From: Antedon mediterranea
Lineage: Eukaryota > Echinodermata > Crinoidea > Comatulida > Antedonidae
Assembly (NCBI RefSeq): GCF_964355755.1
Contig: NC_092672.1
Span: 18,782,501 to 18,846,500 of the forward strand
Reading direction: 5' to 3'
Length of the DNA: 64,000 nt
Under the pieces are notes generated by a model. That model made no database searches and was not told the origin of the DNA. It was given only the letters and a program-made list of their open reading frames with translations. Within the stretch, counting starts at the first letter, position 1; the number at the start of each line of letters is the position of its first letter. Below are positions 849 through 62,559 of this stretch, piece by piece. A program made the translations under genes and the position numbers.

Positions 849-2201
849 ATGAATATTTTAAGGTACGTTTTTATTCTTTTTCAATTTTATTTTGTTAATC
901 GAATTGTGGCAACATCCACAGAATTCATTTATCATCCTCGAGCTGAAACTGCAATTGAGGGAACTGTTGTGAAATTGACATGCGGTGTTGAAGGAGTTGA
1001 TTCTGAAAGTACGTTTTCTTGGATAAAAAATGGTGTTACATTGACCAATGGTAAAGACATTTTAGAATCTAGTCCATATTTGGATCGCAATTTATTCGTC
1101 GATTTTGGATGGTTAACTACAACTTCTATTTACTATACCCTTGAAATAAGTAATGTTTTGCACAGTGATTCCGGAGAATACGCATGCATTGTAAATCATA
1201 ATGGATTTGAGGTAAAATCTAATACAGCTTATATAACAGTTAATCAATTACCACATCGTACTTATCCGTTATGTGAACAAATAGGCAGCCCTGTTAAAGA
1301 AGGAAAGCAAGTGAATCTGAGATGTGAAGGTGAGGTTATAAACCCACCCATCGAATTAAAATTATCAAGATCAATGCCAGGTAACCAAGCAGTTACCATA
1401 TTGAATAAGCGGACAACGCCTATTATTAATTCATTTGTAGCAAATCGTGTTGATAATAATGCTATATTTAATTGTCAGCTAACAACACCAGCGAATACAA
1501 GTATCGTTAGAACATGTAGTATTGGACCACTAAATGTTTGGTATAAACCTAATGTTACAATACAACATGCAGGGATATCATTATCAGGAAGGGAAGCCAT
1601 TTTTATTTGTCAAGCAGATGCAAACCCACCAGTAGACTTTACGTGGCAATTTGATCCGATATTAAACATTGAGCGTTATGTTATTGATGATATTGGGCAA
1701 GTTATGCGCATTCTAAATGTTGACATTGATGACAATGGATTACTTGTTAAATGCATAGCCAAAAATACTGTTGGTCAGGTGACATCTCACGTGATCATGG
1801 AAGTGATCGGTAATAAAGAAGACGACAAACCAAAGACAAACGCTATTGAATCTGTGAATGAAAAACAAGCAGAAAAGAAAAGTATATCTTTATCAGTTTT
1901 ACTAGCTGTTGTATCTGTATTAGTTCTTGTTATTGTATTTGCTATTATTGTTCCTGTTTATTACTTTTGTATTTGCTCAAAGAAAGAGGAAACTGTTGTT
2001 ATTGCTCAACCGGAAGTATACTTTGAACCTCAAGATCGTCTGACATTACCATTGCCAAATAAAAGAAACTCTGTGTTGTGGAGACGTTCATTTGGAGCTC
2101 AAGTTCCTACAGACAGAGATGTTGATGCCATGTATTTGGAGATACAGAGTGATCATTACATCTTCACACCAGATAGCAGAGGAAATACTCTGCCTTATTA
2201 A
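849..2201 (+). CDS. Three-Ig-domain type I membrane receptor, intronless (450 aa)
   Basis: An uninterrupted 450-residue frame. Residues 1-22 form a hydrophobic signal peptide. Ig1 has Cys45, Trp58 and the DSGEYAC strand-F motif ending at Cys113. Ig2 has Cys159 and Cys209. Ig3 has Cys254, Trp266 and Cys302. An extra pair, Cys142 and Cys223, brackets Ig2 and recurs in every paralogue here. The transmembrane helix lies at about 346-372. The 75-residue tail contains QPEVYFEPQDR (387-397), LPLP, WRRSFGAQVP (411-420) and the tyrosine motifs YLEI and YIFT. The layout recalls nectin/CADM/Kirre-type adhesion receptors, but no orthologue is recognised. Function at the cell surface (recognition or adhesion, with tail signalling) is inferred from domains only. 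The lack of introns is unusual for a multi-Ig metazoan gene and suggests an old retrocopy followed by tandem duplication. Confidence 0.9.
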   Translation: MNILRYVFILFQFYFVNRIVATSTEFIYHPRAETAIEGTVVKLTCGVEGVDSESTFSWIKNGVTLTNGKDILESSPYLDRNLFVDFGWLTTTSIYYTLEISNVLHSDSGEYACIVNHNGFEVKSNTAYITVNQLPHRTYPLCEQIGSPVKEGKQVNLRCEGEVINPPIELKLSRSMPGNQAVTILNKRTTPIINSFVANRVDNNAIFNCQLTTPANTSIVRTCSIGPLNVWYKPNVTIQHAGISLSGREAIFICQADANPPVDFTWQFDPILNIERYVIDDIGQVMRILNVDIDDNGLLVKCIAKNTVGQVTSHVIMEVIGNKEDDKPKTNAIESVNEKQAEKKSISLSVLLAVVSVLVLVIVFAIIVPVYYFCICSKKEETVVIAQPEVYFEPQDRLTLPLPNKRNSVLWRRSFGAQVPTDRDVDAMYLEIQSDHYIFTPDSRGNTLPY

Positions 2202-4084
2202 CACATATTGAGATCTAGACATTTCTTACACACTTAAATCGCATTGAACCGAATGAAGAAGAATAACATTGTTAAAAGATATCAGTGTTAACATAAACAT
2301 TTAATTGAATTAGGCTAAATATTTTTTTATTATGTGAACATACTCTAATATCTGATGTCAAATATTTTTTTAGATTCTTAGTTACATAATTTTGTATGCC
2401 TAAATGTTATCTACAATAATTTCTAAAGAGAATATTAGAATAATAATTTGAAAGTCAGCATAAACATGTTTAGTTTATCTCATTCTGTGGATAAGTATTT
2501 GTAATAGTTCTTGTAAAATAATATTTATTAAGATGTATAGTACGACCTATACTTAGGCCTATAACTAAATCATATTTCATCATTATTTTATTGAAATGTA
2601 AATATTGCTATTATAAGTGCTACATATATCGTCAATATAGTACAGTACCTTTATATGACCATTATTATTATTATTATTATTATTGTTATTATTATTATTA
2701 TAGAAAGAACTTTTTTAAATAGTTAAAAACCATTTCTTATTCAATTTACTGTTGTCCAAAATGTATGTATGTCTCATTCGTTAACGTAAATCTATGAATA
2801 ATAAATATACGGTAATAGTAACCAAGAAATTGGTCATTATTACTGTATCCTTGTATTTAAGGTTGCGTTCTGTATAGAGAGAGTTGGTAAGATATTTTGT
2901 TTTGTGTAATGTTATGCTTTGTTTAACTATGGTTAATCGTCTATCAACTGACAGTTTCGGTCATATATCTTGTAAGGCAAATGCAAATAATTTAAAAATT
3001 ACAAGCGATGAATTATCTGCTATCGTTGGTCAACTCGCTTGCGTTGTGCTTACGTCACTGTGTTATGTCCTAGTTGTGCGTTTGTGATATAGTTCTGTTG
3101 AGTAACTTATAGTTACACTTACCAAAGTAAAAGAACAAAAACGTAGTCTACAATGGTTATATCAGTATAGTACAATTTTACCCTGTTCTGTTATATAAAC
3201 AATATTTCAAACTATGGTAAAGAAACGAAATGTTAATGTGTAATTATTGTCTTTCATAAAATGATTACATTACACCTAATAATATAACACTACTATTTAT
3301 GTATGCTTTATTATTTTGTCAACATACTGTTTATAGCTCGTTGTATTAGAATATTAATAATATAATTTTTTTAAATAAAGTAGATTATTAATATTAGGAA
3401 TATATTATATATTATATTTATTTATAATTGTACGGTAACCTACCAAAGCAAACTACATTTCGGCCTATTATAGCTAATATTCTTTTTAAATTATAAAAAA
3501 ATTATATAAATGTTTATACTTGTTAGTTGTATATTGAAGTTTAATAACGAAATGTTATGTACAGTAATATGAGTTTCTCTATTACATACACGTCAACTTA
3601 GTGATGTATGGAAGTGCCAGTAATCGTATGCTCATTTGTATCTATAGTAATGAAATTGATAATATATATTGTAACACAAATTCAAGAAATTTGATTTATA
3701 CAGAATCTCAATCCTGTTGTCGGTCAAGAGTTTGACAGACCAGAGGTTTTTGAGTTTATGAAAATCAACATTATGCTTTATGCGATTGCACTCATTTAAA
3801 TATGTGAATAAAGTTTGCTATTTGATCACTCTTTGTAATCATTATTTGTAATTATTATTAAAACATGTATCGAATAGTCATTGTTTCTGTTGTCATAATT
3901 TATTCTTTTCTTAAATGTCCATCTAGAAGCATGTGATTTTAAGAAGTAATCACAAGTTATTATTTTTCTTTTCTTTGCCAGTACTTTATATTGCATAATA
4001 ATGCAATATAGTATCTATTACAATAATTAGATCATTTGCAATCAAAGTGACCAACTGAATTAAAATGTTCGGCTACAGGTTGAT
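2202..4084. other. Non-coding AT-rich stretch with an (ATT)n microsatellite
   Basis: No supported gene. It contains an ATT trinucleotide run at about 2658-2701, interrupted once, and several AATAAA hexamers (for example near 2800 and 3809) that could end the upstream Ig transcript. Short open frames here lack codon bias and recognisable domains. Confidence 0.5.
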
Positions 4085-4192
4085 CAAACTTTATTGCTGA
4101 TCTGTGTTTTTAGTCGCGTGGACGCGACTGTATAGTCCACTATGTCGGTCGGTCGGTCTGTCGGTCTGTCTGTCGGTCCGGTATCACTATGC
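4085..4192. repeat. Possible small interspersed repeat with GC-rich palindrome and GGTC/TGTC-rich run
   Basis: A GTCGCGTGGACGCGAC imperfect palindrome near 4113-4128 is followed by a low-complexity GTCGGTCGGTC-type run (about 4143-4177). Composition is sharply unlike the AT-rich surroundings, as expected of a transposable-element end or simple-repeat expansion. A reading frame runs through it, but that is a by-product of the repeat. Confidence 0.4.
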
Positions 4193-4504
4193 GTTTTAGC
4201 ACGCGACTTATGGCTGTTGGCCTTGTTTAATCCTATCTATACTCCAGGCTACTCTGATGTATTGTTAGCACATATATTAAAGTATACCCACATTTGGGCG
4301 TGTAAGGCCCGCCGCGATGGTTGGATAGATGGAAGCATAGAGAATACTTTGTTGCTCGCCACAAATAATGTTATTGCTATATCCTTTCAATCATTTAAAC
4401 AAAATAAAAACCTGAAAGTACAATATACAGATATTAAATCATTTCAGAACATCAACATTACATAGCATGTTTCGATAATTATCACCACTTGTATTAAACA
4501 CTGT

Positions 4505-4925
4505 AAACCACAATCCCACCATTACATAGTATTATCAATGCCAAACCACAATCCAACCATTACATAGTATTATCAATGCCAAACCACAATCCCATCATTA
4601 CATAGTATTATCAATGCCAAACCACAATCCCATCATTACATAGTATTATCAATGCCAAACCACAATCCCATCATTACATAGTATTATCAATGCCAAACCA
4701 CAATCCCATCATTACATAGTATTATCAATGCCAAACCACAATCCCATCATTACATAGTATTATCAATGCCAAACCACAATCCCATCATTACATAGTATTA
4801 TCAATGCCAAACCACAATCCCATCATTACATAGTATTATCAATGCCAAACCACAATCCCATCATTACATAGTATTATCAATGCCAAACTACAATCCCATC
4901 ATTACATAGTATTATCAATGCCAAT
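4505..4925. repeat. Tandem array of a 38-bp unit, about 11 copies
   Basis: The unit (containing CATTACATAGTATTATCAAT and AAACCACAATCC) repeats every 38 bp with very few differences; the first two and the last copies are the most diverged. This is a minisatellite. Near identity among the inner copies implies recent expansion or slippage. Confidence 0.95.
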
Positions 4926-5299
4926 ATTGTAAACTATTTATAAATAATACTACAATATAGCTTAACAGCGTAAGATCATTAAATTGAAGATTATCGGCAC
5001 TATTTTAAATTCAACATCAAGGTTGAATAGTTTAAATATCTATTACAACATAAGCAATCTTAAAATAAAACAAAAACGTTTATATCTTCTCCCGACGCGC
5101 CCATACTACAACAATTATACGATACGATACGATAACTAGAGAGACTCATGGTATTCAAATTATATTTAGTCGAGTCAAACTGTTTCATTACCTCAACAAA
5201 ATGTTTTTTGTTGTATTACAGTAAAATATGGTCTCAAAAGGTTGAGAACAAAATCGCGAGCGGGATTGACATCCGCCGCCAATAGTTTGACTTTTCGAT

Positions 5300-5475
5300 T
5301 CAATTCAAACATTTCATTCAAAACATTTCATTCAAAACATTTAGTTCAAAACATTTCATTCAAAACATTTCATTCAAAACAATTTATTCAAAACATTCAA
5401 TTCAAAACATTTCATTCAAAACATTCAATTCAAAGCATTCAATTCAAAACATTTCATTCATATTATATCGCGCCA
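5300..5475. repeat. Tandem/low-complexity array of TTCAAAACATTTCA-like units
   Basis: About ten near-copies of a 14-15 bp TTCATTCAAAACA motif alternate with TTCAATTCAAAGCA variants. The frame running through it translates into a periodic, biologically empty peptide, so no gene is called. Confidence 0.85.
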
Positions 5476-5595
5476 TTCAATTCATATCGATGCATTTCAT
5501 TCACATATCGCGTCATAAAATCATCGAAATGTTGCGTAAACGGCGTTTCATACACTTAAATAGATAACTTAAACTAACATGAGTATACATATATC

Positions 5596-5617
5596 ATGGA
5601 GGTATAAATACCTCCAT
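5596..5617. repeat. 22-bp near-perfect palindrome
   Basis: ATGGAGGTAT and ATACCTCCAT are exact reverse complements separated by two bases. A further GGATGGAGGT occurs 40 bp downstream. It could form a hairpin or be a dimeric protein-binding site. No gene adjoins it, so a role cannot be assigned. Confidence 0.6.
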
Positions 5618-7727: not shown

Positions 7728-8647
7728 GGGTAGTAACAAAGTGCGAGGCACGCGAGGCAGGGAAGGCATGCGAGGCAAGTCAGAAATTTATGCGAGGCAT
7801 CGTTTTACCATCATCAAAAAATGCGAGGCATCATTTTATCATTTCTCAAAATTGCAAGGCAGGAAATCACCGAAATTGAAGTAGTTTCTAGGCCTAGGCC
7901 CGCTAAGCTAGTTTCCTTTTGCACCTGCCTTGTATTTTAACCAACTTTATCCTGAATACCACAGCTTAGAATTAGTAGGCCTACTTTATTGAAGAAAAAT
8001 CACATAAAAGTAACAATAAATCCATTAAATTGGTGATTTTACAGACGTTGTTTTTCTCGCATTTCGCACACTCAATGTTCAATATTTTGGTTTCTATGGA
8101 ACGCCAAAAGAGCAAAATTAATTAGAGGGCTAAAAACTCTGTGGAATCCATTTATATTTAACGCATTATTTGGTGAAAATCAAGTACAATTTCAATAGAT
8201 TTTGTCACTGTCAGTAAGGAAAAATGTTACTGTTGATAATGTACACGGTTTCGTTAACCTTTTAAAGAATAAAATAGAAAAATTCATCATAATATCCTTA
8301 GTAGGATGTCCTAGGTCTAGACTAGGTAGTGATGTTGATTTAGGATCGATTATTATTCTTTGAAAACAGAACAGTATCAGCAGTAACATATTACAACATT
8401 TTTATTGACAAATTAACAAATATATTGAAATAAAACGTGTTTTTCACCAATAAATGCATGAGAAATTGACGCATTCCACTGAGTTTTAGTCCTCTATTAT
8501 CGTTGCTCTTTTGGCGCTCCATAGAAACAAAAATATTGAACATTGAATAAGTGAAATTCGCGAACAGTGTGTGAGAAACACGCCTGTAAAATCATTAATT
8601 TAAGGATTTATTTGCTTGCCTCGCTGCCTCGCACTTTGTCAACACTC
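7728..8647 (+). mobile_element. Internally deleted long-TIR DNA transposon, copy A (920 bp)
   Basis: It begins GGGTAGTAACAAAGTGCGAG and ends with the reverse complement of GAGTGTTGACAAAGTGCGAG. Its first 887 bp match the left arm of copy C (22498-23392), then it jumps to the final 33 bp of that element, so about 1.1 kb of the middle is missing. Subterminal copies of GCGAGGCA are numerous. Flanking bases are gcctagatg on the left and gccta-ctgta-gatg on the right, compatible with a 9-bp target duplication disturbed by a small insertion. It has no transposase and must be mobilised in trans, if at all. Confidence 0.85.
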
Positions 8648-8836
8648 GCCTACTGTAGATGCCTAGCCTACCTAGGCCTAGGCCTATACGTACGGTAGGC
8701 TAGTAGGGAAGTGATTGCACTCGCTCGCCTCGTTCACGGACGAATTTCGATCGGGCCTAGTAGGCCTAGCCTAGGCCTAGTAGGCCTAGGCCTAGACCAT
8801 CAGCTCCACGGACGATCAGGTTTAACCGTTCTAACT
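8648..8836. other. TAGGCC-rich spacer between inverted transposon copies A and B
   Basis: 189 bp dominated by GCCTAGGCCTAG-type words, the dispersed motif of this genome. The last nine bases (8828-8836, gttctaact) are the left target-site duplication of copy B. Confidence 0.7.
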
Positions 8837-15769: not shown

Positions 15770-15944
15770 GTAATTCATCAAGTTCATTTTACAATTTATC
15801 TTCTGTTACAATAGGTGTTCAAAATTAATCATTTTTACGCCTTGTATATTTGTCCGGAATTACATAGTGCAGTAAAATAGTGAAACTGAGTTTAAGGTTA
15901 GTTGCTCTATGTAATGCTGAACGAATGATCACAGCCTTCTTTTG

Positions 15945-18060: not shown

Positions 18061-18119
18061 TTAATTTGGCAGCTGTAACTGGAGGTTTTATGACATATCC
18101 GATACAGCTACTGTATAAA

Positions 18120-31676: not shown

Positions 31677-32525
31677 TCATGTGTTTTCCATATTTCTTTT
31701 TTTTAAATCGTTCGTAATTTCTTTTTTGTTTTGTTCAGTCTCTAATAAAATTTCAAAATGTAAAGGCATATGGTCGGATTCTATCCTAATATCCACTTTT
31801 GGTCTTATTATTTTATCAAAATTAACTGGAAAAGTAATAATATAATCAACAACACTTTTGCCAAAATTTCCTAAAAAAGTAAAGCACCTACTAAATTCCC
31901 TATTTATCCTACCATTTACTATTCTCATCCCTGTTTCTTTACAATGACTTAATAAATTAGTTCCATATTCATTGACTATTTGATCTTCATTACTTCTAAC
32001 ACCTATATTACTATCTATTTCATTTTCTTCTTTATATATATCATTATCCCAATTGGGTGGACATTCATCTTCTGTAATAAAATCATTCATTATACCTGTT
32101 CTTCCATTAAAATCTCCCATTACATATATATTATTTCCAAACTTTTTTTTGTAATTCGTTAGGTCATTTGAAATAGTTCCAACAAAATCTTGATTATTCA
32201 TAGCATGTGTTGAATTAACTGGTGGTCTATAAACCACTGCTAAGGCGATGTTTTCAGAATTATGCTTGATAGATAACCAACATATATAATTTGATGTACT
32301 GGGAAGTTCTTTAACGTATAAATTTGTTTTATAATAAATAATAATACCGCCACTCATTCTACCTCCTGCTTTATGTCTTATGGGCAATTTACTAATACAG
32401 TCATATCCTTCTATATAACAATTTTCTACAGGTCCCGTCCATGTTTCTACTAAACATACAATATCATATTTTTTAATATAGTTCACAAAATCAGAGTCGT
32501 TTATTTTATTCTGTAAACCGTTCAC
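31677..32525 (-). pseudogene. LINE AP-like endonuclease domain (ORF2 N-terminus)
   Basis: 282 open codons starting at MNGLQNKINDSDF; the frame extends upstream as LQIITWNVNGLQNK. Conserved points are DIVCLVETW (catalytic Glu), VVYRPP, VMGDFNGR (metal-binding Asp/Asn) and IESDHMPLHFE (catalytic Asp-His). The domain nicks target DNA for target-primed reverse transcription. The frame breaks just after the domain, where the RT should follow. Confidence 0.88.
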
Positions 32526-35345: not shown

Positions 35346-35497
35346 CAATGATGTTGCGTAGCACTGTGTAAATTATATATAAATCATACTGTAAATTATA
35401 GAAACAGTGCTCATATTCGGAACATGATCTCATAATCGCGTCGAGCATAGCTCATTAGCGAAAGTTCCGTATTTTTTAGTTGTATGAAAAAATGTGT

Positions 35498-35569
35498 GGC
35501 TCTGTGGTCTAGTGGTATGATACTCGCCCTGTAAGCGAGAGGTTGCAGGTTCGAATTCCGCCAGAGACA
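35498..35569 (+). tRNA. tRNA-Pro-like gene or SINE head with anticodon TGT
   Basis: 72 nt fold into a cloverleaf. The acceptor arm has one mismatch at 2:71. The A box TGGTCTAGTGG and B box GGTTCGAATTCC are intact. The anticodon stem CTCGC/GCGAG carries loop CCTGTAA. The T stem has one mismatch and one G:T pair. The body (GGCTC..TGGTCTAGTGGTATGAT) is typical of eukaryotic tRNA-Pro, but the anticodon would be TGT (Thr) and position 33 is C instead of the near-universal T. A TTTTTT terminator follows at once. Most likely a tRNA-derived SINE head or tRNA pseudogene. Confidence 0.55.
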
Positions 35570-36439
35570 TTTTTTCTAATTCTAATTTTTTGTAATTATT
35601 ATTTTATGTTTATTGCCGAAATGAATAAAATAAAAATAAATAAATAAACGTTCTCCTGATACCAAAATCGTTTTGTCAAGTGTATTTCCAAGGAGTGATA
35701 ACATTTGCAACCAAGAACGAATTGCGAGAATGAACTCTTTCATACGTGATATAGCCGTTCTCAAAGGGTGTGCTCTGGTTGATCACGATAAGAACTTCAT
35801 GAATAATGGCATTGCAGAGACCTCCCTGCTGAACTCTGAAGGACTTCATCTTAATAAACTCGGCACACGACAACTTTTAAGGAATATCAACGCCGTGCAC
35901 ACAATTGTCAAACAGAACGAACGTATACAGAGGAGGAACAGTAGCAACCACAAGAGACATCCAGCACCACACGCTCCATCGCCAATGAAACGACATTCAC
36001 TAGGACGCACCTCTAGTAGATGGCAGTATCAACCTCCGCTTATCACTCGGCACTCTAGATGCCAAAAATGCGGCCTACAAAACCACGAAACTAATGACTG
36101 CCACCATCATAATCCAGTGAGATGTAATGATTGTCATGAATTCGGAAATAAAGCCTTCAATGGTTCGCGACCTTTTTTTGTGCCAAATGACATTAGATAA
36201 TTCGCTTAGTAGCCAACGAAATCTGAGTCAGATTACATTTGACAATTCGCATAGCCAACAAGGATGGAGGCGATACCAACTATTTAAGCCCTACATTTTC
36301 AAAAGATCTTAATTTTGTCAAAGATACTAATTATACTACTAGGTCTACAAGTTTAGATAACGAATATGAAACTATTACTACTGATTTACCAACTCAACAC
36401 ATTTCTGTTGCAAACACAACATTTAAACGTCACAGACGC

Positions 36440-40777: not shown

Positions 40778-42199
40778 ATGTTTACAAGACACAAACGTTA
40801 TTTTATACACGTGGAGATCGCTGTATTTGTTTGTTTTGTTATTAATTCCTTAGCAACTCGCATTTCTCAACATCCTGTCGATGTGACGGTCAGAGAGGGT
40901 GACAAAGTGGAGCTATCATGTAAGATTCGACGATTAAGAGAGAACCAGGAAGTCTGGTGGTACAAGAATACTTCGGAACTGAGTCATGGAAGAGTTATTT
41001 TGCAAGACCCGGTAGATTCTCGTTATACTGTTACTTCTTTTCCAGATGGCCTTACTTCTATCTATGTTTTACAAATCTATCCAACTACTCGATCCGATAA
41101 TGGAGTTTATACTTGCAAAATAGTTTCTGATGCAGATATTGTTCTGGAGTCTGAAAACGCTTCTGTTATAATTTTGGAAGTTCCACGGCAACGTTACCCC
41201 GAATGCAGAGCAGAACAAGACACATTCATAGTCAATGACTTGGTTTCGCTAAATTGTAGCACAGAAATAATTCAACCGACTGTAAGTCTGTCCTGGAGCC
41301 TAGACAATACTATTGTTGATAGTGAAATATATATTACTGATAAAATAAAAACAATTCAGTACAAATTTCGTGCTATGAAAACCGACAACCGTAAATCTTT
41401 TCTGTGTGTATTGAAATCGGATATGTTAATGTATTCCAGGAATTGCTCTATTGGTCCCGTTAACATGCTATACAAACCAACTGTAAAAATACACAGTACG
41501 TCTAATACAGTTATCGCGGGACGTGAGGTTTTTATAGCATGTAATAGTGACGCCAATCCGCTTGTTAGAGAATATAAATGGAAAATATCACCAGATATGC
41601 CGCATAAGTATGTTCATATTGATAAGGAGTCTACACAGGTTCTAAGAATTGTAAATATATCAACTGATCAAAACAATACAATTGTTTCTTGTACAGCAGA
41701 AAATGAAGTTGGAAGTGGATTTGATCAGGTTAAGCTTTTTGTCGAAGGCAAAGAACAAGTGAAAGAATCACACCCTGAAAATTTACCAGAAAATGTATCA
41801 TCTGTTGGAATAAGCCTACCATTACCGATACTTATTGCATGTGCTATCACAAGCATTGTTCTTATCCTTATAACTGTTATTGTACCATTATATTTTCTGT
41901 GTATATGTAAAAAAGGGAGGAAAACAGAAGCTGAATTAAATGTTCCTATCAATATAACTGAAATGCAAGAAATATTACAACCTGATTATTATTTCGAACC
42001 ACGTGATCGAGTTCTTCCTAGAGTACCAGATAATGACAGACAGTTCACTTGGAAAAAACATATTGGTGTTCAAGTTCCTGATGATAATTATGATATAGCT
42101 TCTACTTTCTATATGTATTTGACGCTGAATGAACCTAAGCGTTCAAGGCATATTGAACATTATCGGCACTATCATACATTAAATCCTATGCGCTTTTAA
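40778..42199 (+). CDS. Three-Ig-domain type I membrane receptor, intronless (473 aa)
   Basis: An intact single frame. Signal peptide at about 1-27. Ig1 has Cys48, Trp60 and SDNGVYTC ending at Cys113. Ig2 has Cys160 and Cys210, with the family-specific outer pair Cys143 and Cys223 (RNCSIGPVNMLYKP). Ig3 has Cys255 and Cys305, with a CTAENEVG strand-F motif. The transmembrane helix lies at about 346-376. The roughly 100-residue tail holds QPDYYFEPRDR (401-411), LPRVP (413-417), WKKHIGVQVPDD (425-436) and TFYMYLTL. The sequence is clearly diverged from the 849 and 48531 genes, but all tail landmarks are kept. Probably a surface recognition or adhesion receptor; the ligand is unknown. Confidence 0.92.
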   Translation: MFTRHKRYFIHVEIAVFVCFVINSLATRISQHPVDVTVREGDKVELSCKIRRLRENQEVWWYKNTSELSHGRVILQDPVDSRYTVTSFPDGLTSIYVLQIYPTTRSDNGVYTCKIVSDADIVLESENASVIILEVPRQRYPECRAEQDTFIVNDLVSLNCSTEIIQPTVSLSWSLDNTIVDSEIYITDKIKTIQYKFRAMKTDNRKSFLCVLKSDMLMYSRNCSIGPVNMLYKPTVKIHSTSNTVIAGREVFIACNSDANPLVREYKWKISPDMPHKYVHIDKESTQVLRIVNISTDQNNTIVSCTAENEVGSGFDQVKLFVEGKEQVKESHPENLPENVSSVGISLPLPILIACAITSIVLILITVIVPLYFLCICKKGRKTEAELNVPINITEMQEILQPDYYFEPRDRVLPRVPDNDRQFTWKKHIGVQVPDDNYDIASTFYMYLTLNEPKRSRHIEHYRHYHTLNPMRF

Positions 42200-48530: not shown

Positions 48531-49886
48531 ATGAAATATACTATTGGATCAATGTTTTTAAAGTTTCTGTTATTGAATATTTATTGTGTATGCGTTTGTT
48601 CAATAGTTTTTCTTGAAGAACCTAGTGATGCTGAAGTAGTGTTTGATTCAGAACACGAACTCAAGTGCATTGTTGCTTCTAATTCTTCAAATATATTACA
48701 TTCATTTACATGGCATAAGGACGTAGCACTAATAACCGATGTTTTTCCTTCAGAAAGATATTATATTGTTACAAGCAACATTATTGGTAATGATGTTTCA
48801 ATTTTAACAATTAAAAAGGTTAATGTAGAGGATACAGGATATTATCACTGTTCTGTTGTACAACTAAAAACAGTAAAAACATTTTATTCTCGACGTGCTA
48901 TGTTAACAGTTAAATCGTTACCTCGGCCCATGTTTCCAGTATGCTTGCCTGCCAATAGCGTTGATGTTCTTGTTGGTACATCAATAAAACTGTCATGTAA
49001 AAGTGAAAACGTTTTTCCTGAAGTAAACTTAAAGTGGTACCAAAATAGTAATGCAATAAATGATGGAGTTCATACATTTAAAGACGATGAATATGTCATA
49101 TTAGAACTGATATTATCTGTGAAAAAAGAAGAAAATAATGATGTTTTTACTTGTCAGCAAATTTCTGAATTAGTACCTAGAAACATTTCTACCTGTTCCG
49201 TGGGACCAATCAACGTTCGTTATAAACCTACTGTCATTATTCAACATACTGACCAGATTCTACCAGGTAGAGATTCTATACTATTCTGCCAAACCTTTGC
49301 AAATCCACCGGTTACTAATTATAGATGGAGATTTAGTCCTAAATTAAGCAGAGATCAATATTTTGTAGGTGAAACAGGTCAGCTTTTAACTCTAACAAAT
49401 CCAACATTTCAACAGAATGGAACTACTGTAACTTGCATGGCGGAAAATGAAGTTGGTGACAATTCATCAACAATTCGGTTACACGTTGGAAAGTCGAATA
49501 GTAATGAGAAAGCAAGTAATGCAGATTCATCTGGAATTCAAAAGTCAAGTGAGACCATAGATTTATCATTGGATGTAATCATAATCATTGCTGCTGGTGT
49601 TGTTATCATTATTGTACTTGTTGTTCTGGTTCCCGTATATCATTATTGTTTGTGTCGTAATGATAACACTACAATAGTTGATTCTTTAGGAAAAGAAGTA
49701 ACTCAACCTGAAGTGTATTATGAGACAAGAGAGGGAGTTATTTTAAGACATACATTACAAGATCGTTCTTTACCTCGAGTACCTACTACAGAAGTATATG
49801 GTCATTGGAGACACTCAACAGCTTCACAGGTTCCTAATGATCTTGAATCACATAGTTATACTTATATCGACACAGAAAATGATTGA
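48531..49886 (+). CDS. Three-Ig-domain type I membrane receptor, intronless (451 aa)
   Basis: The frame is open from 48363, but the start at 48531 is preferred: it places a signal peptide (FLKFLLLNIYCVCVC) at residues 9-23 and gives the same 451-residue length as the paralogue at 52433. Ig1 has Cys46, Trp61 and DTGYYHC ending at Cys107. Ig2 has Cys156 and Cys208, with outer Cys138 and Cys222. Ig3 has Cys253, Trp266 and Cys302. N-glycosylation sites occur in all three domains. Transmembrane at about 348-371. The tail has QPEVYYETREG (392-402), LPRVP (414-418), WRHSTASQVPND and SYTYIDTEND at the end. From residue 126 on it is about 95 percent identical to the next gene. Confidence 0.93.
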   Translation: MKYTIGSMFLKFLLLNIYCVCVCSIVFLEEPSDAEVVFDSEHELKCIVASNSSNILHSFTWHKDVALITDVFPSERYYIVTSNIIGNDVSILTIKKVNVEDTGYYHCSVVQLKTVKTFYSRRAMLTVKSLPRPMFPVCLPANSVDVLVGTSIKLSCKSENVFPEVNLKWYQNSNAINDGVHTFKDDEYVILELILSVKKEENNDVFTCQQISELVPRNISTCSVGPINVRYKPTVIIQHTDQILPGRDSILFCQTFANPPVTNYRWRFSPKLSRDQYFVGETGQLLTLTNPTFQQNGTTVTCMAENEVGDNSSTIRLHVGKSNSNEKASNADSSGIQKSSETIDLSLDVIIIIAAGVVIIIVLVVLVPVYHYCLCRNDNTTIVDSLGKEVTQPEVYYETREGVILRHTLQDRSLPRVPTTEVYGHWRHSTASQVPNDLESHSYTYIDTEND

Positions 49887-50791: not shown

Positions 50792-50825
<34 letters not shown>

Positions 50826-52432: not shown

Positions 52433-53788
52433 ATGAACCTTTTACGTGTCTCAATGTTTTGTACGATAATATTATTGAATATAGGCCTTACGTGCTTGGC
52501 TTCAGCAAAGGATTTTCTTGAGGAACCTGAGGATGTTAAAGTATTGTTTGCTACAGAACATAGATTCAAGTGTACAGTTTCTACTAATAGTACTATACTA
52601 AGACATTCATTTTCCTGGCATAAAGACGGAATACCAATAGCAGACCAAGATAAAGGAAGATATTTCATTGTTACAAGCAACATTGTTAATAATGATGTTT
52701 CAATTCTTAAAATTAAAAATGTTAAAATAGAAGATGAAGGATATTATTATTGTTCTGTTTTACAACTAAAAACAATGAAAACATTTAATTCTCGACGTGC
52801 GAGGTTGACTGTTAAATCGTTACCTAGGCCCATGTTTCCCGTATGCTTGCCTGCCGACAGCGTTGATGTTCTTGTCGGTACATCAATAAAACTATCATGT
52901 AAAAGTGAAAACGTTTTTCCTGAAGTAAACTTAAAGTGGTACCAAAATAGTAATGTAATAAATGATGGTGTTCATACATTTAAAGACGATGAATTTGTCA
53001 TATTAGAACTGATATTATCTGTGAAAAAAGAAGAAAATAATGATATTTTTACTTGTCAACAAACTTCTGAATTAGTACCTAGAAACATTTCTAGCTGTTC
53101 CGTGGGACCAATCAACGTTCGTTATAAACCTACTGTCATTATTCAACATACTGACCAGATATTACCAGGTAGGGATTCTATACTATTTTGTCAAACCTTT
53201 GCAAATCCACCGGTTACTAATTATATATGGAGATTTAATCCTAAATTAAGCAGAGATCAATATTTTGTAGATGAAACAGGTCAGCTTTTAACTCTAACAA
53301 ATCCAACATTTCAACAGAATGGAACTACTGTAAGTTGCCTGGCGGAAAATGAAGTTGGTGAAAATTCATCAACAATTCATTTACACGTTGGAAAGTCGAA
53401 TATTAATGAGAAAGCAAGTAATGCAGATTCATCTGGAATTCAAAAGTCAAGTGAAACAATAGATTTATCATTGGATGTAATCATAATCATTGCTGCTGGT
53501 GTTGTTATCATTATTGTACTAGTTGTTCTGGTTCCCGTATATCATTATTGTTTGTGTCATAATGATAACACTACAATAGTTGATTCTTTAGGAAAAGAAG
53601 TAACTCAACCTGAAGTGTATTATGAGACAAGAGAGGGAGTTATTTTAAGACATACATTACAAGATCGTTCTTTACCTCGAGTACCTACTACAGAAGTATA
53701 TGGTCATTGGAGACACTCAACAGCTTCACAGGTTCCTAATGATCTTGAATCACATAGTTATACTTATATTGACACAGAAAATGATTGA
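52433..53788 (+). CDS. Three-Ig-domain type I membrane receptor, intronless (451 aa)
   Basis: Closest paralogue of the 48531 gene. Signal peptide at about 1-25 (FCTIILLNIGLTCLAS). Ig1 has Cys47, Trp62 and DEGYYYC ending at Cys107. Ig2 has Cys156 and Cys208, with outer Cys138 and Cys222. Ig3 has Cys253 and Cys302. Transmembrane at about 348-371. The tail differs from that of the 48531 gene by one residue (His for Arg next to the membrane). Ig1 is only about 70 percent identical, whereas the remaining 325 residues differ at about 15 positions. 3' UTR and flank are also shared until the Penelope insertion at 54117. Likely a surface receptor with diversified first domain. Confidence 0.93.
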   Translation: MNLLRVSMFCTIILLNIGLTCLASAKDFLEEPEDVKVLFATEHRFKCTVSTNSTILRHSFSWHKDGIPIADQDKGRYFIVTSNIVNNDVSILKIKNVKIEDEGYYYCSVLQLKTMKTFNSRRARLTVKSLPRPMFPVCLPADSVDVLVGTSIKLSCKSENVFPEVNLKWYQNSNVINDGVHTFKDDEFVILELILSVKKEENNDIFTCQQTSELVPRNISSCSVGPINVRYKPTVIIQHTDQILPGRDSILFCQTFANPPVTNYIWRFNPKLSRDQYFVDETGQLLTLTNPTFQQNGTTVSCLAENEVGENSSTIHLHVGKSNINEKASNADSSGIQKSSETIDLSLDVIIIIAAGVVIIIVLVVLVPVYHYCLCHNDNTTIVDSLGKEVTQPEVYYETREGVILRHTLQDRSLPRVPTTEVYGHWRHSTASQVPNDLESHSYTYIDTEND

Positions 53789-54694: not shown

Positions 54695-54843
54695 GTCTTC
54701 CGTTTTTATTCTATCTTTTGGGTGAACCAGTCCATTCTTTAATTTATTACTTGGAATGAAGAAAGTGTTTACTTTGTGCTTAGCAAATGTGCGTCGAATC
54801 TTTTAAAAAATTTCGTGTATGTATGGGATACCTATGTGAGCTT

Positions 54844-56922
54844 TCATCTTCTCCATTTCCTTTCTTTGACGTTCTTCTGGCTTGTTTTTGAATTTTGTTC
54901 TTTTCTCTTGCTCACGACTCTGTCCACTGACCATTTTGGATAGTTACAAATTTTCAATGCTTTTCTAATGTGTTTCAACTCCTGTTTTTTATCTTCCTCT
55001 TCACTAACAATTGTGTTTGCTCTATCCACCAACGTGTTAACCACGCTTAGTTTGTGTTCTAAGGGATGATTAGAGTGGAAGTCCAAGTATTGGTCGGTGT
55101 GAGTTGGTTTTCGGTATACCTTTGTAGCGAGTGTTCCATCTTGTTTAATCCTGATAATCATGTCCAAGAATGTTATTTGTTTCTCTGACATTATTTCTGT
55201 GGTAAACTTGATCTTGCCCGACGGGTCAATGCTATCAAGATGGCGATTGAGGGGGAGAGGTGCATCTTTATGGACGATGGCAAAAACATCATCAACATAC
55301 CGTCTCCAAAAATGTCGTTTGATGGTTCCATCTGCGCTCTTAATGGCTTCTTCTTCAAACGATTCTAAATAGATATTCGCTATCAGATGGCTTACCGGAG
55401 AACCCATTGCAATACCTTCGTGCTGTTCATATATCTGTTGTTAAAATGTGAAATATGTTGCATCAATCAACTGGTAGATGAGTTCCATGATGTCTTCCAC
55501 TGTTAATTTCGTTCTCTTATGTATTGTTGTATCTTTTTCCCAAGTATGATCTTACAACCTCCAAGGCTTGACCTGTGGGTGTTTTTGTAAACAAGGAGAT
55601 GACGTCAAAAGACACCATCACCACATTTTCGAAGAGGTTCAGCTGTTTTAGGTCTTCCGCCAGTTCTTTCGAATTGGTCACATGATATTTACTTAGACCA
55701 ACCAAGGGGATTAACACCTCCTTTGCGATAAACTTAGACACGTGATAATAAACAGAGTTGATGTTGTCAACTATAGGTGTGAGAGGCCAATCCGGTTTAT
55801 GGATTTTAGGCAGACAGTAAATTCTAGGTACTACTTCTGCGGTGGGGTACAAACTACATTTTTATGCTTTTCTTCTTTTAGAAGTCTACCCAGTGTCTTT
55901 ATTAGTTTATCCTTGTATTTCTTGGTCGGATTGGTAGTCAACTTTCCATATACCTTTTAATCACTCAGCATTCGATTGACTTTATTTACATAATCCTCTG
56001 TGTTTATCACCACCGTTGCACGGCCTTTGTCAGCTGGCAATATCATAACTTCTTTATCTTTCTTTAATCCTTCAAAAGCATTTCTTTCTGTTCTACTTAA
56101 ATTGGGGAGTGGGGGTTTAGATGATTTAAGAATGCTAGTTACCTTTCCTCTGATGGTATCCTTCTCATCCAACGGTATGCTATCCAATTTACATATCATT
56201 TCCGTTGAAACAATTATTTCTTCAATGGACCTGCTCTTGTTTCGATCGCCGCTAACCGCGTAGTTCAATCCCTTACTGAGCACGTTTTGTTCGTCTGACG
56301 ATAGTGGCCTAGACGATAAATTTACCACCCATTTTCTTTCAACAATTTTCCACTTAAATCGATTTCCGTTTGTAAACTTGTATTTATTTTCTTTGCTTTG
56401 TCTCCACCATTTTAGCTTCTTTATCTGTCTGGCTTTAACACGTGCAAATTCCGATTCTCTGACATTGTTTAAATGCTTCCGGGTGTTGCCGCGAACGACA
56501 TGGCTACTTGGATTGACGCCAATCGGCTTAGGCCTGTTATTATTATTATTACGCACGTCGTTGAAACTCTCGTCTAACCTTTGTTCAATTTCTTTTTCCT
56601 GCCTTTTTAATACTTTTATTGATTTTGTCGATTTTCGAATACTTTCTCTTACTAACCTATTTTCCGCATCTTTTATTATCTTTTCTGCGTTGCTGGGATT
56701 TATAGGGCATTTTAATTGTAGGCCCTTCGGTGTGATGTTTAGCCGCTTACAATGTAAAGCAAACACTCGGTGGTGTCGTGTTCGGGCTGCCTTCCTCACG
56801 ATCTTTTCTTGAGCGCGCACTAATTTTACCGTATCTTGACCGTATTTCGATCTGATGATATTGAATAAATTCATCTGGTTCCAAATAATATTTTTGTGGA
56901 TTTTTACTTTATGTTGAACCAA
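54844..56922 (-). pseudogene. Penelope-type reverse transcriptase, two stops and a frameshift
   Basis: Three open stretches: 56922-55957 (basic N-terminal region, ending with MILPADKGRATVVINTEDYV), 55852-55517 (PRIYCLPKIHK, VSFDVISLFT) and 55407-54844 (GIAMGSPVSHLIANIYLE, RRYVDDVFAI with the catalytic YVDD, then KVYRKPTHTDQYL). These are the conserved RT blocks of Penelope-like elements, relatives of telomerase RT. The premature stops preclude a full protein. Confidence 0.88.
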
Positions 56923-56966
56923 AGAAACGAAAAGGAATAAATTACCTTCGTGACGTTTCGTCGACA

Positions 56967-58010
56967 GTTAAAACCAAGATTTGAATAATCAATTTATAAG
57001 AATGTAAAAATGTTTAATATTCAAGTAAAAGCTGATAAAATATGCACAGTACATGCAGTGTTTATTAACGTTTTTGTATGAAATTCGATTTGGATTCTTT
57101 TAAAATTTGGCTGAATTTAAAAGAATTGAGGGCGCTTTAAAAATACAAACTAAACAAAAAGCATCAAATACATTGTGGCGTTTCATACTTTACTAAAAGG
57201 AATCTTTGGTGTTTATGCATGCAATAATAATATTTTGGAGATGAAAGGGCATGTATTGTATCTCCAAAATAAGCAATATAGATAGTAGCCTACTGCGGGC
57301 TTTGAACAATAAACATTATTTTTAACTAGAGAATTTACCTGACACATACTAGTAATTATCAAGAAGAAACATTTTAATTTATTTAAGTTTTTCTATATTT
57401 GCTTTTATATCTAAAATATGCTATAAAATTGAATTATTGCTTTTTAAGCAAAAAAGAAACAATAAACAATCTAAAAACTATAAACAAATATTTTAGCAAT
57501 TCAACTTTTACATTACAACGTTTTTAGAACAAAATGGTGGTTTTGATGCTTTATATTTTTATATCTTGTTTTGCTTTCTGTTTAATTTAAAAGAATTGAA
57601 GGCGCTTTGAATTAAAAAATAAATAAAAATATATTTATGGCCTTCCATAATATGAAACTGTCCATAATATCGAATTTGAGAAGTTTCATACATGAAAATC
57701 AATCAATTTTCAATGTGAAACGTGTCTAATCGTCGGGTGACAAAATCAAAATATCCCAACACTCAACCCACCCCGCTTCCCGACAATCAGAATGAGAAAT
57801 GGACGAAAAACTGTATTGTAGTTCGTAGGAATATTTGTGGTCATCTACGTTTGGGCAGTTTTTTGGAGAGGTAGAGTACATTTCGAAAAATTAATAGTTT
57901 GCATTGTGTAGTTATCTCCAAAACAAATGTAATAATTATATGTAGATAATCTACTTAAAACTTGAACATAATTTGTCATAGGATATTTATCTGACGCAGA
58001 TGTCATTATC
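56967..58010. repeat. 3' flank of the 52433 gene (segmental duplicate), resuming after the Penelope element
   Basis: Closely matches 50860-51960 (shared TTTGAATAATCAATTTATAA, TGAAAGGGCATGTATTGTAT, GTGTCTAATCGTCGGGTGAC). Similarity to the gene-48531 flank stops at about 58010, where unrelated sequence with the tyrosine recombinase begins. Confidence 0.85.
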
Positions 58011-58516
58011 AAGGCACAGTATTTGTGTTAGTCTAGCGACCGGACAGGACAACAAATAAAAAACACAGATAAACCATCATTGGGTGGAAATGTCATGTAT
58101 TATAATGACGAATACTTAAATGTGTATAATTGGTATAACATAGATGACATATTTAACACAAATCACCTATAGTATAAAACTGAATTATATTACATAATAT
58201 AAAATGGCTTACGCCCTATACGTTATGTCATCTGAAACAATAAATAAAATAGTGTATAACTGATATCAGTAGTAGTAGACTATTATAAAACAAAGTATAA
58301 ATCAAAGTATTAAACTCTACTTACTAAACAATACTTATTAAGTTAACAAATTTGACTTAAGCATCAAATCTGTATATCTGTAAATCTACTTGAGTTCTGA
58401 TTAAAATACAATAACATATAAAATTGACTGTAAGACAAGAGTCTGGGTGTCAGCGCCAAAAACCCAGCCTTGAATGGGTTCCCACCTAGAGCAAACAAAA
58501 ACCACTGGCCTGACCC
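58011..58516. other. Non-coding segment left of the tyrosine recombinase piece
   Basis: AT-rich, with no domain or repeat recognised. It probably belongs to the same inserted element as 58517-59633. Confidence 0.35.
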
Positions 58517-58687
58517 TTATGAACCGGACGATGAAATACGAATGTATTTCATGAAAATGGAAGATTTCCATCTACCAAATTGTTGAATGAGGCTATCTGA
58601 CATGCCTAATGACGCAGCATGTGTTGCTGCCCCAATGCGAAAACTGTGTAATGGATCGGATTCAACCCAATTGTCACGGCAACATTG
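58517..58687 (-). pseudogene. Tyrosine recombinase, C-terminal catalytic part
   Basis: The minus strand reads DPLHSFRIGAATHAASLGMS, then LIQQFGRWKSS and IFMKYIRI before a TAA at 58517-58519. These are the H-x-x-R, the W/H-position GRWKSS and the nucleophile Tyr of the tyrosine recombinase fold as found in DIRS/Ngaro retroelements, Cryptons and related eukaryotic elements. The frame is closed on its 5' side by a TAG just before CAATGTTG, and the N-terminal part lies 550 bp away. Confidence 0.85.
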
Positions 58688-59234
58688 CTAGTGGGTTTGG
58701 TGTGTTGTGGACTCAAGACAAGAATAATATACTTATAAAACACTAATATATATATATCCAGATTATCTTTTTATTACAAGGGTGCACCCAATCTGAGGTA
58801 TATAAATATCTCTATAATACAAATTACAGGTGAATTATCTTCATGAGTCCATTTCCAATTTTACGTTGAAATACAGTACTCTTTGTTCATGTCACTCCCA
58901 TATTTCCATTCCATCTTATCCATAATTTCTTCGGTGATTTCTCTGATGTTTTCTAAGCTTAATCTTCTTAATTTGGCACTTCTCTATTCTCAAGTGGCAC
59001 TGTAACACAGACAAATATTACCGTAGTATACAGTTCATTTACGGTACCCTATAACATTCATTAGATCAACAATCTATTTTATAAATATAACTATTCTACT
59101 TACAATGCAGCCTAATTCATTACTCGTACGCAAATCCCAATTTCATTGTCTTATGGTGACAATGCTCATTCGCTCCCCGTTGTCTAAAAAAACACTGTAT
59201 GCGCTACACCGCAGTCTACACAAAATATCGTTAT

Positions 59235-59633
59235 TCAAATAATTTGCTCATTACCATAATTATAGTGATCACCTGCTCTTAGTCGGCACGCCACAAACTG
59301 TTGTGTAACTGCCTTGCTATCAAGGTGCTGAAACAGGGGACATGTGAACTGTTGGCAGTGTGCACGGCAGTTGGTTAGTGCGGCCACTGGGCAGTCCTTT
59401 TTCCAGTTTTGTGGTGCCGTATTATGATTAAAGCCCCTGTTTCGTTCAGAGTTAAATCGTTGCGCTGCCAACTCTCCGAGCCGAAAAAAACCCTGAAACG
59501 ATGTAAGAAATAATGCTTCAAGCAACAGACGATGGGATAGTAATGGTTCTATAAATTGCAATGCATCGAGTAGCCTAAGAGTCCACTCTTGGCGCCCCAG
59601 AATGAATCCCGCGGATAATAATTTTTTGAACAA
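59235..59633 (-). pseudogene. Tyrosine recombinase, N-terminal/central part
   Basis: 132 codons. LLSAGFILGRQEWTLRLLDA leads to LTSFQGFFRLGELAAQ, holding the first catalytic Arg in the FRLGEL context, then CPVAALTNCRAHCQQFTCPL and FQHLDSKAVTQQFVACRLRA, typical of the region before H-x-x-R. After RLRA the match stops at an AG|GTGATC donor-like word, so this piece and the one at 58517-58687 may be two exons or one gene split by an insertion. The parent element type is unresolved. Confidence 0.82.
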
Positions 59634-59684
59634 GGAAAAACCCGATAGGATCCGGTAGGCCCACTAACATGTGTACGAACGAGA

Positions 59685-59955
59685 TTCAAACATGGAAATA
59701 AATCTTTTATTTTCAATGTGAAACGTGTCTAATCGTCGGGTGACAAAATCAAAATATCCCAACACTCAACCCACCCCGATTCCCGACAATCAGAATGAGA
59801 AATGGACGAATAACTGTATTGTAGTTCGTAGGAATATTTGTGGTCATCTACGTTTGGGCAGTTTTTTTGAGAGGTAGAGTACATTTCCAAAAATGAATAG
59901 TTTGCATTGTGTAGTTATTTCCAAAAACAAGCATAATAATTATATGTAGATAATC
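59685..59955. repeat. Extra copy of the array 3'-flank segment
   Basis: Matches 51605-51870 and 57690-57945 (GTGTCTAATCGTCGGGTGAC and following). Together with 57690-57945 it brackets the recombinase-bearing insert as a 250-bp direct repeat about 2 kb apart. Confidence 0.85.
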
Positions 59956-61377
59956 ACCCGATTCTGCTATTGTCCATAGGTGCTATCTGTAAAACTATAG
60001 CAAGTTAAACACGTTGCTGTCTGCTGTAAATGCTGTACTTTTAACACACGGTACACTGTCTGTAGCACAGTGTCTGTTGACAATTTACAATGATGTACAA
60101 CCATAGGCAGGTTTTCGTACTGCCATGCAAGAATGGATAGGTGTTTCCCGTCGCTTTTAGGCCTTCTTGTCAATTATTGTTATTATTATACGAATTACGT
60201 AATTAGTTTAGTAGCTCATCTACCTTTTTAGCAGCCCATCATGAATATTTCATGATCTTAGGTCTTAGGGGGTCTTAGCTTTCGTGGTCTTAGGTTTCGT
60301 GACACCCGGTTGACCTGTATTCTTCTAGCTAATCTTACTAGGCCTCGAGTAGGTCTACCCTAAATTCCGGCTACAATAATGGTCTATTCTGTTTATAGCT
60401 TTATTGATACTGGGTTCAAATCTGGGTTGGGACGGCTTTTTCTGATTCAAAAACAGATTTCCTTATAATAATAAAATAATATCGGCCTATGAATTTAACT
60501 TAATATTGTATTGTTTACATAATATTAGTAATTCCCATTGCATTTATTATTATATATTTTACGGTTACCCCTTAATTATACTATAGTATAACTTCCTTGT
60601 TATATTTTACAATATTTTCTTCATAATTCAGAAATTTTTTTTTTCACAGCACAAATTATCATACTGAATCATCACACACCAAGTCTCATGAAATCTCTAC
60701 TGTATTTCTGCAAGCTAATGCAGCTACATGGTATTGCCTTGAGGCTAAAATTACACTGTATACTGGCACTACCATCATTCCTGGCCCACACATAAGTACA
60801 GTCGTGTACTACTGATTCCATCCTGTGGTCAAGGCTTTATTTGCTCTTATGCTTATTTCCTCTAACATACAGAGTACGTAGGGCTTCTAATTTGCTTTTA
60901 TACCTGTTAATTTAAAAATCATTTATGCCTATTGGTGCATAAAGATCAAATTTAGACTGTAAATACTGGAATAATCACCCAAAATTTATTTCACAGCTAG
61001 TCAAAAGCATACAGAGTTTTTGTTTTGTTTTATTCATAACTGTTGAATTGCATCCCAATACATGGTACCTATTAGTATTATATCTATAAATATAAAGTAC
61101 TCTCTTATAAATAGATGTATCTCTCCAAACTACTCCAACTACCTAATCTAATAATAGTACTATTAGCATACTACTGTACACTTTGTAGACAAGAAATAAG
61201 TTGTATCCACCTAGAGGACTTATGGTAGTACTGTACAGTCGATCGTCCTCTCACTGGCCTGGTCAACATAATCTACGCCTAGATTATTACAGTAATTAAA
61301 AAGTACATTATTACAGAGATTTTTTTTTTTGCAGAAATGAAAGTTATGTGTATATAACTGATAGTTTTCAAATATTG
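59956..61377. other. Non-coding stretch with a GGTCTTAGG-rich transposon-like end
   Basis: No supported gene. At 60258-60306 the words GGTCTTAGG, GGTCTTAGCTTTCGTGG and GGTTTCGTGACACCC recur, a pattern seen at ends of invertebrate DNA transposons. The remainder is AT-rich. Confidence 0.4.
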
Positions 61378-62559
61378 AAAGACGATGAATATGTCATATT
61401 AGAACTGATATTATTTGTGAAAAAAGAAGAAAATAATGATGTTTTTACTTTTATTTTTTTAATTTTTTTTTTATTTTATTCAATTTCCAGGTAACATACA
61501 AAAATCATAAACAAGGTACGGCATCATTCAATAAAACAGAACAAAAGTACTATCAGCACCTGCGGGTAACCAAAAGTGGATCAGTTCAAAAGAACTACAC
61601 TGTCGAGTGGCTTTCCCAACTAATAGTACGAAAAACGTCAACAAACTTCTGAATTAGTACCTAAAAACATTTCTAGCTGCTCTGTCGGACCAATCACCGT
61701 TCGTTATAAACCTACTGTCATTATTCAACATACTGACCAGATATTACCAGGTAGGGATTCTATACTATTCTGTCAAACCTTTGCAAATCCACCGGTTACT
61801 AATTATAGATGCAAATCCAACATTTCAACAGAATGGAACTACTGTAACTTGGCTGGCGGAAAATGAAGTTGGTGACAATTCGTCAACAATTCGGTTACAC
61901 GTTGGAAAGTCGAATATTAATGAGAAAGACCAGATTCTACCAGGTAGGGATTCTATACTATTCTGCCAAACTTTTGCAAATCCACCGGTTACTAATTATA
62001 GATGGAGATTTAGTCCTACATTAAGCAGAGATCAGTATTTTGTAGATGAAACAGGTCAGCTTTTAACTCTAACAAATCCAACATTTCAACAGAATGGAAC
62101 TACTGTAACTTGCCTGGCGGAAAATGAAGTTGGTGAAAATTCGTCAACAATTCGGTTACACGTTGGAAAGTCGAATAGTAATGAGAAAGCAAGTAATGCA
62201 GATTCATCTAGAATTCAAAAGTCAAGTGAAACAATAGATTTATCATTGGATGTAATCATAATCATTGCTTCTGGTGTTGTTATCATTATTGTACTTGTTG
62301 TTCCCGTATATCATTATTGTTTGTGTGGTAATGATAACACTACAATATTTGATTCTTTAGGAAAAGAAGTAATTCAACCGGAAGTATATTATGAGACAAG
62401 AGAGGGAGTTATTTTAAGACATACAGTACAAGATCGTTCATTACCTCGTGTACCCCTACTACAGAAGTATATGGTCATTGGAGACACTCAACAGCTTCAC
62501 AGGTTCCTAATCATCTTGAATCGCATAGTTATACTTATATTGACACAGAAAATGATTGA
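61378..62559 (+). pseudogene. Broken Ig receptor copy: no Ig1, Ig3 partly duplicated, tail frameshifted
   Basis: Homology to the 48531/52433 genes begins inside Ig2 (KDDEYVILELIL), is interrupted by a retroposed insert at 61451-61636, and resumes at the Ig2 end. The first Ig3 copy has lost about 130 bp (NPPVTNYRC... jumps to NPTFQQNGT) and is followed, after NEK, by a second, complete Ig3 starting at DQILPGRDS. The transmembrane segment remains with two residues lost. An extra C in the LPRVP codons (about 62452) shifts the tail out of frame. The 266-codon frame at 61781-62581 is open but has no signal peptide. A silenced pseudogene is the best reading. Confidence 0.88.
61451..61636 (-). mobile_element. 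Retroposed fragment inside the Ig pseudogene
   Basis: About 186 bp absent from both intact paralogues. On the minus strand it ends in an A-rich tail (AATAAAATAAAAAAAAAATT). It contains TTGAATGATGCCGTACCTTG and TGTATGTTACCTGGAAATTG and no coding domain. SINE or LINE 3' end; a clear target duplication is not seen. Confidence 0.65.

Follow-up and report, generated by a model that had tools for sequence, protein, structure and literature searches.

Clustered single-frame receptors with three immunoglobulin domains and a shared cytoplasmic tail in the crinoid Antedon mediterranea

The described systems closest to the genes reported here are the Hydractinia Alr genes, which are clustered members of the immunoglobulin (Ig) superfamily with low overall identity, and the vertebrate paired receptors (KIR, LILR, SIRP, Siglec and CEACAM), which combine an Ig ectodomain with tyrosine motifs and are encoded in tandem clusters. 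The family of three-Ig receptors with a transmembrane helix and a common tail that we compare with them was found in a 64,000-nucleotide stretch of the genome of the crinoid Antedon mediterranea (C3:18782501-18846500, hereafter the window; the genome comprises 354.4 Mb in 18 contigs). The best reading, made by likeness of pattern and not implying membership of either group, is that the crinoid family would work like Alr or the paired receptors. The crinoid genes are clustered and diverse and encode predicted single-pass Ig receptors, as do Alr1 and Alr2. They differ from Alr in belonging to another phylum, in the number of loci, which is more than twice as high with each locus read as a single frame, and in the homogenisation of a tail block within arrays. 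Three broken copies were noticed here, whereas 44 models in the Hydractinia assembly were suggested to be pseudogenes.

The paired receptors tend toward shared ectodomains and variable tails, according to a section of PMC3533184, and the crinoid family shows the reverse arrangement, with varied ectodomains and shared tails. The ectodomains of SIRP and CD22 are nevertheless among its fold matches. Nectins and nectin-like proteins, with an ectodomain of the V-C2-C2 type, have three Ig domains too and occupy the first rows of the structural comparison described below; they are encoded by few genes with introns, and they have a conserved C-terminal PDZ-binding motif, whereas the last residues of the crinoid proteins differ between arrays. 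The proteins of the sea urchin Sp185/333 (SpTransformer) family are secreted and do not belong to the Ig proteins. The Sp185/333 genes, which are immune genes of an echinoderm, resemble the crinoid family in being clustered, in having gene conversion suggested for them and in nearly lacking pseudogenes, but they have two exons (PMC5103432), in contrast to the single frames found here. No echinoderm family is named in the available portion of a review from 2025 on Ig proteins of invertebrates (PMC11999971), and a search of titles and abstract openings in the open-licence literature, with the terms used, returned no such receptor family. The statement of the preliminary description that the tail belongs to no named family agrees with the searches made with one tail each, which gave no match in the PDB (E up to 10) or in Pfam (E up to 0.05).

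Size, layout and architecture of the family

The family is real and larger than first described, with about a hundred loci. Using three family proteins as queries, at least 97 distinct loci were found genome-wide, 95 on C3 and two on C10. The count is a lower bound, as each search scored only 77 to 94 of its 325 to 398 first-look candidates; neither a recount nor a further search, with the C10 gene at 1.68 Mb as fourth query, added to it. Within about 213 kb (C3 18.701-18.914 Mb) lie 53 of the loci, grouped in arrays A (10 loci) and B (15) on the minus strand, arrays C (9), E (7) and F (11) on the plus strand, and the single locus D. Another 22 are located at C3 11.73-11.90 Mb, and 18 of these form array G, which is arranged head-to-tail over about 30 kb (11.874-11.904 Mb) with a spacing of 1.57-1.81 kb. 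A 60-residue tail query produced 90 matches among 92 scored candidates, all of them in family loci (89 on C3, the other being the C10 gene at 24561414).

A tail row was missing for seven of the 97 loci (C3 12630530, 12635057, 18567249, 18844428, 18850138 and 18913159, and C10:1677755). The locus at C3 18913159 (L035) has a standard tail in spite of this, so a missing row can be a scoring limit; the tails are altered at 18567249 (L045), at 12635057 (L051) and in L042 on C10, and one gene of the window (m5) is broken. The other broken members noticed were L037, which is truly interrupted and retains a 319-residue frame, and C3:15220344, seen in search rows only. Several rows marked '1 TGA' raised the possibility of stop-codon readthrough, which was rejected on the four of them that were read through: the frames of L035, L036, L038 and L055 are intact and the alignment merely overruns the terminal stop. 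The locus C10:1677221-1678909 (L042, L066) is a divergent member with a 563-residue product and a much longer tail containing a PIYEEL site. Its late tail block, ending in YEEL, is similar to that of the rest of the family, and L042 is possibly close to the ancestral form.

Full-length members were aligned with a threshold of 420 amino acids, L037, m5 and open reading frames cut by the end of a locus being excluded. The resulting 52 sequences comprise all 10 of array A, 10 of 15 in B, all 9 of C, the single member of D, 3 of 7 in E, 4 of 11 in F, 4 of 18 in G and 11 of 26 loci outside these arrays. The alignment thus lacks 45 of the 97 loci, including m5 and L037; the other 43 are known only from search rows or from fragments at the margins of other loci. 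All 52 are uninterrupted frames of 443-563 residues, which partly reflects the selection by length. The canonical cysteines of all three Ig domains are present in 52 of 52, and the tryptophan in 51 (Ig1), 40 (Ig2) and 52 (Ig3), which places the members in the Ig superfamily. Cysteines 138, 156, 208 and 222 (numbering of the window gene m4) around Ig2 are likewise invariant (52/52), and an extra Cys138-Cys222 disulfide may enclose this domain.

A structure model was of modest confidence, mainly in Ig1-Ig2. Foldseek searches with it placed nectin-like, nectin and SIRP ectodomains on top, with CD22 also among the matches; the first three rows were nectin-like 4, nectin-3 and a 'cell adhesion protein', at template-modelling (TM) scores of 0.25-0.39 and a root-mean-square deviation of 12-16. 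When ranked by VIA-align, other Ig proteins lead, and Rst is among the leading fold matches.

Homogenisation and constraint of the tail

Inside the arrays the transmembrane helix and the tail are far more alike than the ectodomains. In 75-base steps, DNA identity within each of arrays A, B, C, F and G is 0.86-0.99 across this region and falls to 0.24-0.43 in the first step that lies fully or almost fully beyond the stop codon. The block of low divergence begins at the transmembrane helix in B, F and G, within Ig3 in C and around the Ig1-Ig2 border in A and E, and its end coincides with the stop codon in five of the six arrays (all but E). Pooled synonymous divergence (dS) drops from Ig1 to tail in all six: from 0.91 to 0.15 in A, 1.22 to 0.11 in B, 0.82 to 0.11 in C, 0.37 to 0.07 in E, 1.19 to 0.12 in F and 1.21 to 0.19 in G.

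Codon usage at unchanged residues gave the same picture. From the transmembrane helix to the end of the tail, the proportion of identical codons is 0.85 within G and 0.93-0.96 within the other five arrays (A, B, C, E, F), whereas the 11 isolated members show 0.42 against a random expectation of 0.45, and the pairs of arrays compared show 0.37-0.57 with the exception of E and F. Arrays E and F share 0.90 of codons in this region but 0.50, 0.51 and 0.46 in Ig1, Ig2 and Ig3, respectively, and in the ectodomain tree they are about 1.2 changes per site apart although their tails nearly coincide. Since the ectodomain tree (100/99) and the tail tree (98/95) both unite E with F, no exchange of ectodomains with genes outside this group need be invoked, and homogenised tails account for the contrast. 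The likeness of tails within arrays is best explained by concerted evolution through gene conversion, the probable cause as judged from these sequence comparisons. The family also offers a clean natural case of homogenisation largely confined to the intracellular half of a gene family.

Gene conversion alone does not prove that the tail is constrained. The constraint is seen in the isolated members, which keep the tail landmarks in spite of synonymous codons at the random level and which therefore indicate that functional constraint on the tail is real. Among 17 representatives (the 11 isolated members and one from each of arrays A, B, C, D, E and G), Y396 is kept in 17, W426, Q433 and Y445 in 16 each and P393 in 15. 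The conserved cytoplasmic partner that had been deduced from the tails of the window genes is thus supported, with the isolated members rather than the array tails carrying the argument.

Putative signalling and recognition

Two tyrosine motifs recur in the tails. Among the 11 isolated members, 9 carry YxxP, against a mean of 3.8 and a maximum of 8 in 200 shuffles, and all 11 carry Yx(E/D)(I/V/L), against a shuffled mean of 1.6 and a maximum of 4. These counts are subject to the reservations that the motifs were first spotted in the sequences later counted, that the isolated members share ancestry and that the shuffles overstate independence. The second motif occurs in 30 of the 52 aligned members, namely the 11 isolated ones and all 19 of arrays A and C, which carry both motifs; in G (4 members) and D (1), YxxP occurs alone. 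YxxP is favoured by SH2 domains of the Crk/Nck type and YxE(I/V/L) by those of the Src or SHP type, and tails combining YxxP with Yx(E/D)(I/V/L) suggest phosphotyrosine signalling.

On balance, we favour a lineage-specific family of recognition receptors, whose varied ectodomains converge on one shared intracellular output, likely phosphotyrosine, for self/non-self recognition. New members would arise by tandem duplication, nearly all on one chromosome; their ectodomains, Ig1 foremost, would be free to diverge, and the block from transmembrane helix to tail would be homogenised repeatedly within arrays via gene conversion. The varied outer domains would in this way feed a single common output, most likely phosphotyrosine signalling through the first YxxP site, the W...QVPxD element and the late Yx(E/D)(I/V/L) site. 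A second type of tail, without either motif, is found in arrays B, E and F, and the family is therefore probably a mixture of receptors able to signal and altered ones. Its most likely use would be the recognition of self or non-self on the surface of immune or contact-forming cells; the pattern of varied outer parts and a conserved tail is reminiscent of self-recognition and immune receptor clusters, and a putative immune or self-recognition role is plausible.

Besides the reservations on the motif counts, several observations weigh against this interpretation. Both tyrosine motifs are absent from arrays B, E and F, that is, from 17 of the 52 members. The strict immunoreceptor tyrosine-based inhibitory motif (ITIM), (S/I/V/L)xYxx(I/V/L), was found in six of the 52 (5/11 isolated members and 1/41 others) and is not enriched among the isolated members (shuffled mean 2.5, maximum 6), a difference from the ITIM-bearing paired receptors. 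In the three members of array E, the likeness continues beyond the stop codon. A shared promoter, TATA or AATAAA/poly-A signal did not appear above shuffles. Pooled pairwise ratios of non-synonymous to synonymous divergence (dN/dS) for Ig1 are 0.30-0.55 in the six arrays and gave no sign of pervasive positive selection; among 22 young pairs (Ig1 dS under 0.35), only one reaches a ratio of 1 (1.07, from 2 synonymous and 8 non-synonymous changes). The sole pooled ratio well above 1 is that of the short stalk in array C (2.18, at a dS of 0.028). With such low values for Ig1, the divergence of the ectodomains appears mostly ordinary and under constraint at this resolution.

A bolder form of the recognition hypothesis, which we offer tentatively and with considerable doubt, is that the genes constitute an echinoderm complex for histocompatibility or non-self recognition, in which conversion re-supplies one tested signalling tail to about a hundred germline receptors and so leaves their outer domains free to diversify. 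If true, the sharp conversion island from the transmembrane helix to the stop codon would be what uncouples recognition from signalling. In favour of the recognition reading in general, the coelomocytes of sea stars tell allogeneic cells apart and aggregate against them, and the portion of that report at hand names no receptor for this allorecognition (PMC9763293). About a hundred clustered single-frame receptors would be a concrete candidate for allogeneic recognition in echinoderms.

The family could instead serve cell adhesion or wiring, forming a combinatorial code between tissues or neurons comparable to Dpr/DIP, nectins or Kirrel, with the tail anchored to the cytoskeleton or to a PDZ scaffold. 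We regard this as unlikely, although it accommodates several results: nectin-like 4, nectin-3, SYG-1 and Rst are among the leading fold matches, dN/dS of Ig1 is below 1, and the final residue is V, I or L in 11 of the 17 representatives, as in PDZ ligands. This last count has no chance control and is a weak hint of PDZ binding. Against the adhesion reading, the last residues differ between arrays, and 97 tandem copies with saturated ectodomain divergence are unusually many, as adhesion families usually show fewer copies and less divergence. Receptors for gamete recognition or another reproductive function, expanded by conflict, are an improbable alternative. Clustered, fast-evolving single-exon genes suit reproductive families equally with immune ones, but the tails are phosphotyrosine-like, which is more typical of somatic signalling.

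The remaining alternatives concern the tail itself. Selection at the nucleotide level, for instance on an overlapping RNA or DNA element, could lower synonymous change in array tails without conversion; the sharp end of the block at the stop codon, seen in every array sampled but E, would fit, and identical codons between arrays slightly exceed the random level for A-B (0.57), B-C (0.56) and A-C (0.53). Nevertheless, the values for the isolated members (0.42) and for A-G (0.41), A-X (0.41), C-X (0.37) and G-X (0.38) lie below the random 0.45, and this explanation is improbable. That the tails are alike through recent duplication only and lack functional constraint, as their nearly identical DNA within arrays might imply, is already contradicted by the ectodomains of the same genes, whose synonymous sites are close to saturation (in array B, dS is 1.22 for Ig1 but 0.11 for the tail), and by the isolated members, in which codons are random and the tail residues Y396 (17/17), W426 and Q433 (16/17 each) are kept.

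Family members in the window and neighbouring features

The window contains four intact genes, each one uninterrupted frame and all on the plus strand. Gene m1 (849-2201, array C) encodes 450 residues with a leader, three Ig domains, a transmembrane helix at about residues 346-374 and the tail landmarks YFEP, LPLP, WRRSFGAQVPTD and YLEI. The codon of its first conserved tail tyrosine, in YFEP, is at 2019-2021 (+) and aligns to Y396 of m4, a position occupied by tyrosine in all 52 aligned members. Gene m2 (40778-42199, 473 residues) is a singleton, designated array D, inside the large cluster; its tail contains YFEP, LPRVP and WKKHIGVQVPDD. Gene m3 (48552-49886, array E) lies in a frame open from 48363, and the ATG at 48552 was chosen by the hydrophobicity of the residues that follow; its tail is of type 2 (YYET, LPRVP, WRHSTASQVPND and YTYIDT). 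Gene m4 (52433-53788, array E), with 451 residues, provides the reference numbering for the family: Ig1 at about 27-128, Ig2 in the region of about 135-219, Ig3 at about 220-320, the transmembrane helix at 347-376 and the tail at 377-451. In all four, matches to Ig_3 and I-set exceed the Pfam curated cut-offs, and a hydrophobic N-terminus and a hydrophobic helix are evident by eye (helices 2-23 and 347-377 in the model); the leader and the transmembrane helix were thus assigned by eye and from the structure model.

Two further copies are incomplete. Positions 1-249 (+) hold the 3' end of an upstream member of array C, covering the end of the transmembrane helix and the tail, whose intact gene is C3:18781391-18782746 (L011); this fragment is 98.8% identical to the tail of m1. 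The broken gene m5 (61354-62559, plus strand, array E) has Ig2 and Ig3 pieces across two frames, a repeated Ig3 piece and a change of frame within the tail, and no Ig1 was detected in it at E up to 0.01. The six full members of the preliminary description are accordingly reduced to four. The shared tail landmarks, QP(E/D)xY(F/Y)E, LPRVP or LPLP, W(R/K)...QVPxD and a late tyrosine, stand in all four intact genes but represent only three independent tail types in the window, because m3 and m4 are near-duplicates (85% identity, with practically identical tails), compared with a whole-protein identity of 28-33% between the types of m1, m2 and m3/m4. The genes had also been described as intronless, and a single open reading frame per gene agrees with this, the absence of introns being predicted from the frames alone. 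The tektin genes of the same genome are split into exons, and ordinary split genes thus coexist with the single-frame receptors. Of four tektin genes, each compared through one exon, three had their best match in PDB 8snb, presumably from sea urchin, with 212 to 135, 182 to 139 and 199 to 137 bits versus the next protein of a different entry, which we take to be vertebrate; in the last case identity was 80% to 8snb and 59% to the runner-up. These scores support a position closer to sea urchin than to vertebrates, which points to an echinoderm at a level above that of class. COX1 was not found.

Other Ig genes were encountered outside the family. A dispersed group on C9, C10, C5 and C6 (L002, L006, L007 and L008) and elsewhere consists of very large frames (up to 1,377 residues), apparently also single; in about 830 residues of two of these, Pfam gives two Ig domains and Ig families only. 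Two regions on C8, at 4.70-5.78 Mb and 0.49-1.92 Mb (L003 and L004), account for 35 and 18 of 150 Ig_3 rows, in short frames on both strands, and are apparently a second, exon-split expansion of Ig genes on another chromosome.

Between the array members of the window, a frame at 31677-32525 (-) carries an endonuclease/exonuclease/phosphatase domain (PF03372) and is probably a piece of a non-LTR (long terminal repeat) retrotransposon. A 321-residue frame at 55957-56922 (-) matched nothing in Pfam (E up to 0.05), and its end presumably resembles a Penelope-type reverse transcriptase. A tRNA-Thr (TGT) was predicted by ARAGORN at 35497-35570 (+) and may be a repeat-derived copy.

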